Assembly: GCA_001885315.1 (NCBI GenBank)
Contig: MLPZ01000002.1
Location: 1 to 64,000, forward strand
Length of the DNA: 64,000 bases
Source: Treponema sp. CETP13
GTDB taxonomy: Bacteria; Spirochaetota; Spirochaetia; Treponematales; Treponemataceae
Reading direction: 5' to 3'
Positions 3,289 to 5,933 of this stretch are shown one piece after another (position 1 is the first letter of the stretch; each line of letters opens with the position of its first letter). Made by a program: the position numbers and the translations under genes. The notes beneath the pieces were generated by a model that was not told the DNA's origin, did not search any database, and saw only the letters and a program-made list of their open reading frames with translations.

Positions 3289-3455
3289 TTCTTTATCTTG
3301 CCGGTATTACATTAAGCATATTTAGACTATAAAACGTATATTTTTATTAAGACGATATTTGATTTGTAGTGTACATTCCATTTTAATTATGGTGCTAGTA
3401 TAACATAGTGGACACAAAAAACGCTACATACTATTTTATAAGAAGGATGTGTAGC

Positions 3456-3734
3456 ATGGAAAGAAAAAAGAAAAGGTATACAGAAGAGTTCAAACAGCAA
3501 ATAGTTGAACTGTACCGAAACGGAAAGTCTGTAAGAGAACTCTCAGGTGAATATGGCTTAGTAGAACAAACAGTGTATAAATGGATTCATCGGTATGAAC
3601 CGGTTGGTAAAAATGAGAAAGGAGAAACTGTAACACAGCAGGATGTCCATGCAATGCAAAAACGTATTGCAGAACTTGAAATGAAGAACGAAATCTTAAA
3701 AAAAGCTACAGCCATATTCGCCAAAACAAAGTAA
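3456..3734 (+). CDS. IS3-family OrfA, transposase N-terminal HTH protein
   Basis: The 92-residue protein has the classic OrfA layout: RRYTEEFK-like start (KRYTEEFKQQIVELY), a helix-turn-helix (SVRELSGEYGLVEQTVYKW) and a C-terminal leucine-zipper-like segment (MQKRIAELEMKNEILKKA). The ATG follows an AGAAGGA ribosome site; an upstream in-frame GTG near the IS tip is less likely. OrfA normally binds the IS ends and is fused to OrfB by a -1 frameshift. The OrfB frame is indeed -1 relative to this one and is open across the OrfA stop. Confidence 0.88.
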   Translation: MERKKKRYTEEFKQQIVELYRNGKSVRELSGEYGLVEQTVYKWIHRYEPVGKNEKGETVTQQDVHAMQKRIAELEMKNEILKKATAIFAKTK

Positions 3735-4604
3735 AAAAAAAAGTTGCATTTGTAATAAAATACAAGGAAACTTATCCGGTAAAAATCATGTGCAAGGTTA
3801 TAAAACTTCCGCGAAGTACTTTTTACAAGAGTTTAAAATGGAAACCAAGTATTGTTATGAAAAGAAACGAGGAATTGGATTCAAAAATTCTTAAAATTTA
3901 TTACGAAAGCTTACGACGGTATGGAGCCCCAAAGATTTATCACATTCTCCAAAAACAGGAAGAAAAAGCGAGTCTAAAGCGTATCCAGCGAAGAATGGCT
4001 ATTTTAGGAATAAAATCAATCGTCGTAAAGAAATATAGGCCTGTAAAAACTGAAAAGATACAAGAACAGAAAGAAAATATACTGAATCAAGATTTTACAA
4101 CAACTTCAATCAATCAGAAATGGTGTACAGATATTACATACATCCATACAGAAAAAAAACGGTTGGACATACCTTGCTTCAGTAGAAGATTTGTATTCAA
4201 GGAAAATTATCGGATGGGCATTTGGTCTTACAATCAATGCAGAGCTTGCAGTAAAGGCTTTAGATAATGCATGCTTAAATGTAAAAAAAACAGAAGGGGT
4301 AATTATTCAGTCAGATCTTGGTAGTCAGTATACAAGCACCCTTTTTGAGGCAAAACTTGCTCGATATAAAATTCGCCACTCATACAGCAAAAAAGGCTAT
4401 CCATATGACAATTCCTGTATCGAGTCATTTCATTCTGTTTTGAAAAAGGAAGAAGTAAACTTGAAGAAATATAAAGATTCAAAACAAGCATATGATGCAA
4501 TTTTTGAATATATTGAGTCGTGGTATAACCGCAAAAGAATTCACTCAAGTCTGAATTACAGAACTCCGGAAGATGTTTATTTAGAATGTGATTTCGTTGC
4601 GTAA
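3731..4604 (+). pseudogene. IS3-family OrfB transposase, frameshifted
   Basis: OrfB begins in the -1 frame with YKETYPVKIMCKVIKLPRS and carries the rve/DDE catalytic core: first Asp in WCTDITYI, second in QSDLGSQYTS and the Glu in CIESFHS. The frame breaks at a run of eight A at 4152-4159. Removing one A restores HTEKNGWTYLASVEDLYSRK, a normal IS3 sequence. The gene is therefore inactive unless ribosomes slip on the A-run or the run is a sequencing error. The C-terminal half matches the copy at the window start. Confidence 0.85.
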
Positions 4605-4643
4605 ACTCGCGTTTTATGTGTCTACTTTATTGACATAGGTCCA

Positions 4644-5196
4644 GTTTTTGTACACTTTTATCGTTAAAAATAGATTTAATATCATAGCGATTAATTTCAC
4701 CTATTGCCTTATTACCGACTTTTGGGAACCAATATTTGCGTACTCTGCATTTCATTGTTTCACAGTATGATCTATGAATACTTTGTCCTCGTAATTTTTT
4801 TTCTTTTACATACGGACTTTCGTCAAATTCCCAAAATGTTTTTAAAAAATCTTTAGCGTTTAAACTTTCAGTTTCAGAAGGGAGTATTGCATTAACAATA
4901 AGTTCACGATCTTTTAATATTTTAATGATTTTATTTGTGTCTTCTTTTGTTAAGTCTATTGTTCGCAAAGTAGAAAGCAAATTAACCTTATTTAAGGTTG
5001 TTTTAGCTGTGCTATTTTTTGCATTTATTCTTTTAGGAAGAGCTCCCTCTTTGTACCAACTTAAAACAATGTTTTCAGCTTCTCTGCGGTTACGTACTCC
5101 AGTACTTCTTTGAATAGGTTTGTGTGTTTCATCTGCTGGAAAATTTACATAATAAATGCCATTACTTGTTTTAAAAATAGAATAAGGCTTAGCCAT
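4644..5196 (-). pseudogene. Tyrosine recombinase (phage-type integrase), N-terminal remnant
   Basis: The start (MAKPYSIFKTSNGIYYVNF) resembles the arm-binding domain of integrases, and the following part up to INRYDIKSIFND resembles the SAM-like core-binding domain. The catalytic domain with the R-H-R-H-Y residues is missing because the reading frame runs into the IS end at 4644; the last few residues are IS-encoded. The gene starts 135 bp from the first copy of the tRNA-fMet 3' end, which is the usual place for an integrase of an element inserted in a tRNA gene. I infer it once drove insertion of this island. Confidence 0.65.
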
Positions 5197-5300
5197 TTCT
5201 AACCTCTTTTTATTAAGTTCCTTTTTTAGTAGGAAATCTTAATAGGAATCAAGAGTTTATAAAACGCCAAGCCTTACTTTATTAAGTTTGGTAATGTTAT

Positions 5301-5323
5301 AAAACCTTATAACATAAGGTTTT
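5301..5323 (-). terminator. Hairpin after the last tRNA-linked repeat
   Basis: A perfect 10-bp stem (AAAACCTTAT / ATAAGGTTTT) with a 3-base loop sits just past the outermost repeat. It occupies the place that the GACAACC hairpin takes after the other units. Only a weak T stretch follows, so termination is plausible but not certain. Confidence 0.45.
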
Positions 5324-5330
5324 ATCTATT

Positions 5331-5860
5331 TAGCAGGAGTAGGACTTGCCTTACAGTTCGCAACATCGTGTTGCTCCCTTCCAGGCCGCGCTCAACTCCT
5401 GACGCAGCCGTCCTTGGCTGCTATTCCTCGCGATTGCTCGGCGGAGTTTCACGTTCAAGTCCAAAAGGACATAAAAAAAGACAACCAAAAAGGTTGTCTT
5501 TTACTTTAGCAGGAGTAGGACTTGCCTTACAGTTCGCAACATCGTGTTGCTCTCTTCCAGGCCGCGCTCAACTCCTGACGCAGCCATCCCTGGCTGCTAA
5601 TCCTCGCGATTGCTCGGCGGAGTTTCACGTTCAAGTCTAAATTGGGCATAAAAAAAGACAACCAAAAAGGTTGTCTTTTAATTTAGCAGGAGTAGGACTT
5701 GCCTTACAGTTCGCAACATCGTGTTGCTCTCTTCCAGGCCGCGCTCAACTCCTGACGCAGCCATCCCTGGCTGCTAATCCTCGCGATTGCTCGGCGGAGT
5801 TTCACGTTCAAGTCTAAATTGGGCATAAAAAAAGACAACCAAAAAGGTTGTCTTTTAATT
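5331..5860 (-). repeat. Three tandem 176-177 bp GC-rich repeats joined to the tRNA-fMet 3' end
   Basis: Units begin at 5331, 5507 and 5684. In the orientation of the tRNA each unit is: the GACAACC terminator hairpin, about 120 bp of GC-rich sequence, and finally CAAGTCCTACTCCTGCTA, which is exactly the last 18 bases of the tRNA gene. Units 2 and 3 look identical; unit 1 differs at a few bases. The GC-rich part has strong foldable arms: GCAACA/TGTTGC, GCAGCCA/TGGCTGC, AACTCC/GGAGTT, and a closing GACTTG/CAAGTC pairing. No promoter lies between the units. They could be scars of repeated insertion at the tRNA, or a duplicated structured RNA made by read-through. Confidence 0.85.
5824..5856 (-). 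terminator. tRNA-fMet terminator
   Basis: An 11-bp stem (AAAAGACAACC / GGTTGTCTTTT) with a 5-base loop and a following run of T on the minus strand lies right after the tRNA 3' end. The same hairpin is repeated after the RNA part of the second and third repeat units (near 5650-5680 and 5473-5503). Confidence 0.85.
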
Positions 5861-5933
5861 TAGCAGGAGTAGGACTTGAACCTACGACCTCCGGGTTATG
5901 AGCCCGACGAGCTGCCAACTGCTCTATCCTGCG
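5861..5933 (-). tRNA. Initiator tRNA-fMet (CAT)
   Basis: A full cloverleaf can be drawn: D stem GAGC/GCTC, anticodon loop CTCATAA and T arm GTAGG/CCTAC. Three G:C pairs (GGG/CCC) flank the anticodon loop and the first acceptor pair is mismatched (C1, U72); both are hallmarks of bacterial initiator tRNA. The 3' CCA is not encoded. The gene remains whole although foreign DNA is joined to its 3' end, as expected when insertion restores the tRNA end. Confidence 0.93.

Follow-up and report, generated by a model that had tools for sequence, protein, structure and literature searches.

Repeat elements with a conserved predicted fold trail tRNA genes in spirochaetes and at least two other phyla, and resemble the E. 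coli RtT repeats

Why does the end of a tRNA gene reappear three times behind the initiator tRNA gene of a Treponema-family bacterium, each time at the close of a foldable segment of roughly 120 nucleotides? We addressed this question in a window of 64,000 nucleotides of Treponema sp. CETP13 (GenBank assembly GCA_001885315.1, contig MLPZ01000002.1, positions 1 to 64,000), combining repeat detection, covariance models and comparisons of host tRNAs across genomes. We found that the three units belong to an uncatalogued family that lies behind many different tRNA genes, and behind tmRNA, in spirochaetes and at least two other phyla, and whose closest known counterpart is the RtT RNA of E. coli.

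Tandem Repeats Finder reports a period of 177, with 3.1 copies and 97% matches, at 5328-5878. The array lies on the minus strand downstream of tRNA-fMet and consists of three head-to-tail units of 177, 177 and 176 bp, of which two are identical (5505-5681 and 5682-5858) and the distal one (5329-5503) is 95% identical by BLAST, with a 1-bp difference in length. Each unit holds a terminator, a folded core of roughly 120 nucleotides and an exact copy of the tRNA 3' end, and each core is closed by a stem, P1, that pairs an antisense copy of the T-arm with that sense copy. The features are, in order downstream from the tRNA:

5861-5933, minus strand: tRNA-fMet (anticodon CAT), the host gene of the array (ARAGORN; Rfam RF00005, 61.9 bits)
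5859-5878, minus strand: 3' end of tRNA-fMet, from the T-loop to the end, the 20-bp sequence repeated in every unit
5830-5856, minus strand: terminator hairpin of tRNA-fMet, first copy of an exact 27-bp repeat
5696-5815, minus strand: folded core of unit 1, from the antisense T-arm copy to the start of the sense copy (122.1 bits, E = 1.9e-27, with the covariance model R1 described below)
5806-5814, minus strand: antisense T-arm copy of unit 1, the 5' strand of closing stem P1
5682-5701, minus strand: sense copy of the tRNA 3' end closing unit 1
5653-5679, minus strand: terminator hairpin, second copy
5519-5638, minus strand: folded core of unit 2, identical to unit 1 (R1, 122.1 bits)
5629-5637, minus strand: antisense T-arm copy of unit 2
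5505-5524, minus strand: sense copy of the tRNA 3' end closing unit 2
5476-5502, minus strand: terminator hairpin, third copy, also found by a terminator scan
5343-5462, minus strand: folded core of unit 3, 95% identical (R1, 124.1 bits)
5453-5461, minus strand: antisense T-arm copy of unit 3
5329-5348, minus strand: sense copy of the tRNA 3' end closing unit 3, the distal end of the array
5299-5325, minus strand: a different hairpin after the last tRNA 3' end (a 12-bp perfect inverted repeat), inferred to be possibly the original fMet terminator displaced by the array

The repeat described in the earlier note is therefore real, although the exact shared tRNA 3' end is 20 bp (TTTAGCAGGAGTAGGACTTG on the plus strand, at 5329, 5505, 5682 and 5859) and not the 18 bases that the note had given. 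The note had also missed the antisense copy of the T-arm, which reads GTTCAAGTC on the plus strand at 5453, 5629 and 5806 (GACTTGAAC on the minus strand) and stands at the beginning of each unit, just after the terminator. Whereas the unit occurs nowhere else in this genome, it is not an assembly artefact, an outcome that the note had set as a possible refutation: the same kind of array exists in many independent genomes and the third copy differs in sequence, even if the exact copy number of the two identical units could still be mis-assembled. Open reading frames of 44-48 amino acids within the units look like frame artefacts, and blastn searches of phage and plasmid collections gave no match.

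The note further placed the units next to an integrase remnant, but this remains unproven, as the open reading frame at 4627-5196 has no match in Pfam, NCBIfam or PDB and only one PHROG match, at E = 0.033, to a family of unknown function. This frame sits directly beside the end of an IS3-family element (3400-4640) that may truncate it. A second copy of the element opens the window, which starts at a contig end inside the IS, with its first 245 bp (1-245) identical to the 3' part of the other copy from roughly 4399 onwards. Between the two lie a fragment matching the C-terminal domain of a type I restriction enzyme R subunit (EcoR124_C; 305-1165), probably cut by the IS at the contig start, and a Fic/DOC-domain protein (1184-1633) directly after a 339-amino-acid frame (1635-2654) with a weak match to a phage transcriptional regulator family, together (1184-2654) a possible RhuM/Fic-type or toxin-antitoxin-like pair.

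To find relatives, we first searched 195 genomes of the same family with blastn, which returned relatives of roughly 75% identity in 17 genomes (including that of the window) from 6 genera; where the context was readable, these lay directly behind tRNA genes or tmRNA. Eleven units were aligned with MAFFT and gave an RNAalifold consensus of 31 pairs, 21 of them with compensatory double changes. The covariance model built from this alignment (R1) found the element in 165 of 245 genomes and 15 of 20 genera of the family, often in many copies per genome, and phylum-wide in 48 of 296 genomes, including other families, orders and classes. A scan of all genomes with a short DNA pattern gave mostly chance matches and was useful only once filtered with R1, which added Omnitrophota, a Mucispirillum MAG, a deltaproteobacterial MAG and one unclassified genome, but no hit among the viral contigs that share the seed pattern. 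A refined model (R2) found five copies in one Omnitrophota genome (G502; genomes are numbered with G and fetched loci with L), behind tRNA-Cys, Pro, Asn, Leu and Arg.

Of 109 distinct hits in the fetched loci, 77 have a tRNA or tmRNA within 250 bp upstream on the same strand, with a gap of usually 20-80 bp, and 20 of the other 32 follow a previous unit within 200 bp. Almost all of the rest are at contig ends, next to N runs, behind a partial tRNA 3' end or slightly further behind a tRNA, and none is on the opposite strand. Hosts include Met, fMet, Ser, Leu, Ala, Pro, Gly, Arg, Val, Thr, Asp, Gln and Glu, and also Trp, Asn, Cys and tmRNA, and units also occur inside tRNA operons (L070, L048, L054, L076 and L082). 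In the 68 cases with a clear host, the sense end shares a median of 18 identical nucleotides with its own tRNA 3' end, compared to 5 with tRNAs of other type, and the antisense end shares 12 compared to 5. One complete genome (G434) has units behind at least eight isoacceptors (Gln, Ser, Arg(tcg), Arg(tct), Met, Glu, Trp and Pro), each with its own matching P1, and another (G427) has a five-copy array behind tRNA-Asn.

The fold is supported by covariation. On 127 distinct units, 95.2% of cells form standard pairs, 29 of 31 pairs show double compensatory changes and the covariation score is 0.71, compared to 0.18 in shuffles and at most 0.08 for slid partners. Whereas this alignment was fitted to the model, which leans towards the structure, the slid controls and the first MAFFT alignment agree with it. 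Each unit comprises roughly 100 nucleotides of a conserved three-way junction closed by P1, whose 3' strand is a copy of the T-arm/acceptor 3' strand of the host tRNA and whose 5' strand is its antisense. Arm A carries tandem G-A motifs (GUGAGC/GCGAAC and CCGAGC/GCGAGG, inferred from sequence), as internal loops, and a hairpin whose loop is CANGGANG or CAGGANG in 112 of 127 units; arm B carries a hairpin that is CAGGANG or CANGGANG in 67 and CACGANG in 43 of 127. G-U pairs make up only 1.4% of cells (55, against 31 A-C cells; p = 0.013 for the asymmetry), compared to roughly 10-12% in tRNAs of the same loci. The tRNA strand is thus mildly favoured, but such rarity of G-U is unusual for an RNA, and the asymmetry does not decide between selection on RNA and on DNA; the fold may also, or mainly, be selected as DNA.

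The history of the units is mostly one of descent with rare movement. In one genus, the Ser-Ser-Arg-Ser operon is polymorphic: a unit lies after tRNA-Ser(tga) in L239, where related genomes have short spacers (L240, L241 and L245), and after tRNA-Arg(gcg) in L246, L247, L251, L258, L259 and L267 but not in others. At this second position L249 carries a palindrome, GGACACGATTCAAATCATGTCC, that looks like a scar left by loss of the core between the P1 arms. Units in G059 and G038, of different genera (loci L011 and L012), are 98% identical but sit in unrelated flanks, between unrelated terminators that are each repeated on both sides of their unit, and the antisense in G059 fits the tRNA of G038 better than its own, which suggests transfer with target-derived flanks, although mis-binned contigs cannot be excluded. 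In general, cores at different tRNAs of one genome are only 65% identical, which does not support a recent intragenomic burst, compared to 62% at the same tRNA in different genomes and 59% otherwise. Nearest neighbours from another genome share the tRNA in 27 of 61 cases, against 13.6% of all such pairs. So units mostly descend with their tRNA, move rarely and keep the fold while the sequence diverges.

Does any described family fit? The note knew of none, and the view that none fits is half right. At gathering thresholds, Rfam finds only tRNA in the window, permissive thresholds return nothing credible, and literature searches gave nothing on this family. The 178-bp tandem repeats of E. coli tyrT (RtT RNA, RF00391; PMC329039), however, follow the same plan. 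E. coli tyrT/tyrV carries RtT four times, once between the tRNAs and three times after them; each copy ends with 19 nucleotides of the tRNA 3' end, three of the four start with a 10-nucleotide antisense run (to ATCCTTCCCC) and the fourth carries the same segment with one change. A GAGC-n-GCGAG hairpin and a GC hairpin follow, and P1 folds as in the spirochaete units. By contrast, RtT sits at tRNA-Tyr with no evident terminator between tRNA and unit, whereas the spirochaete units sit at many isoacceptors (fMet in the window) and tmRNA, have an extra arm and GGA loops, and usually follow a terminator. The RF00391 model gives no hit above its curated cut-off (45 bits) in the window, in L011, L035, L070 and L143, or in any of 100 family genomes, while the E. 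coli control is detected. In the reverse direction, R1 and R2 rank the RtT copies first to fourth in the 3-kb E. coli locus, but at only 11-16 bits. Homology is thus suggestive and not proven, and we refer to the units as RtT-like, not as members of RtT.

We consider it most likely, with a probability of roughly 0.6, that the units are RtT-like 'tRNA-trailer' elements that would be read through from the tRNA and closed by the tRNA's own 3' end. What our data establish is the fold and its covariation, the location behind many tRNAs and tmRNA, the specificity of both P1 strands for their own tRNA, the tandem arrays, the patchy presence at orthologous sites and the spread over several phyla. The rest is inferred from sequence alone: that the element is transcribed by read-through and released by tRNA 3'-end processing, as is reported for RtT, which is reportedly released from the tyrT transcript and was linked to the stringent response; that it enters at the T-loop, so that the host tRNA keeps a complete 3' end, with arrays then growing or shrinking by recombination between the repeated tRNA 3' ends and terminators; and that the released RNA works in trans, for which protein binding through the conserved GGA loops is the leading idea. 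Against this reading, a T-run of at least 5 lies between tRNA and unit in 42 of 68 single-gene cases and all three window units sit behind a terminator, which would limit read-through, G-U pairs are rare, and no insertion was seen at base-pair resolution between near-identical genomes.

The interpretation offered by the note is partly supported. Of its three ideas, a structured RNA transcribed by read-through from the tRNA fits best, given the covarying fold and a position behind the tRNA that is the same across phyla. Serial integration of a tiny tRNA-targeting element is supported in part by the patchy presence at orthologous operons, the many isoacceptors occupied in one genome and the T-loop-bounded ends that match the host tRNA, but no mobilising enzyme was found and units mostly stay with the same tRNA over evolution. 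A broader view, possible but somewhat less likely than not, is that these are a cross-phylum class of structured elements that hitch-hike on tRNA genes by incorporating a sense and an antisense copy of whichever tRNA they sit behind, so that one fold can be re-targeted to nearly any isoacceptor and to tmRNA, with RtT as one outlying branch; they may be regulatory RNAs or a new kind of mobile element. What had been a single-locus curiosity in E. coli now looks like a large family present behind many tRNAs in most Treponema-family genomes sampled and in other phyla, which raises the question of how an element acquires antisense and sense copies matched to each host tRNA, provides a ready set for RNA sequencing, CsrA binding and insertion studies, and would explain repeated tRNA 3' ends that can be mistaken for att sites of islands.

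The strongest alternative, though unlikely on present evidence, is a miniature mobile element that acts at the DNA level, that is, a non-autonomous, hairpin-rich element whose folded single strand, as in integron attC or IS200/IS605 ends, is recognised by a recombinase acting at the T-loop, with the RNA being incidental. The very rare G-U pairs, nearly balanced by A-C, the ends at the T-loop, a common integrase target, the tandem arrays, the polymorphic orthologous sites and the near-identical units of L011 and L012 all speak for it, the last with the reservation that MAG contamination could account for them. Integron attC sites and IS200-IS605 and REP hairpins likewise show covarying hairpins, arrays and a site-specific position, but the units form a complex three-way junction closed by host-matched tRNA sequence, and no associated integrase, Y1 transposase or other recombinase was evident in the flanks, which were only looked over by eye. 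The absence of hits among the viral contigs also speaks against it, and the divergence of the cores is old, so the fold outlives any mobility.

A regulatory RNA that titrates CsrA in the manner of CsrB/RsmZ, delivered with tRNA transcripts, is a specific form of the main reading and does not exclude it, but is also doubtful. Hairpin loops and junction strands present GGA motifs, tandem copies would multiply the sites, and the loops counted above fit the Csr/Rsm consensus and resemble the multiple GGA-in-loop hairpins of CsrB/RsmZ. CsrA is encoded in all 15 spirochaete genomes tested and in Mucispirillum, but not convincingly in the Omnitrophota and deltaproteobacterial genomes, whose units look different. 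However, CACGANG, the form of hairpin 2 in 43 of 127 units, should not bind CsrA, CsrA is also present in spirochaetes without units (G014, G001 and G012), E. coli has CsrA but its RtT hairpin loops lack GGA, no sequence or structural homology to CsrB/RsmZ was shown, and those RNAs are not known to lie behind tRNAs. Binding and titration of CsrA are inferred from the loop motif and the presence of the CsrA gene.

The third idea of the note, att-site amplification at an ordinary tRNA-targeting genomic island with no element of its own, draws on the possible integrase fragment beside the array and on tRNA 3' ends repeated as in attL/attR, but describes the tandem state only and is very unlikely, as it explains neither the conserved covarying core between the repeats nor the units inside tRNA operons without islands (L070, L076 and L048), and the window frame has no integrase match.

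In L258, after tRNA-Arg, the antisense end is amplified as near-perfect repeats of ACGATTCGAA just before the unit, and in an Omnitrophota locus (L189, positions 1-400) neighbouring copies of a tandem array share the sense end and part of the second arm while the middle differs; arrays can mix unit variants.
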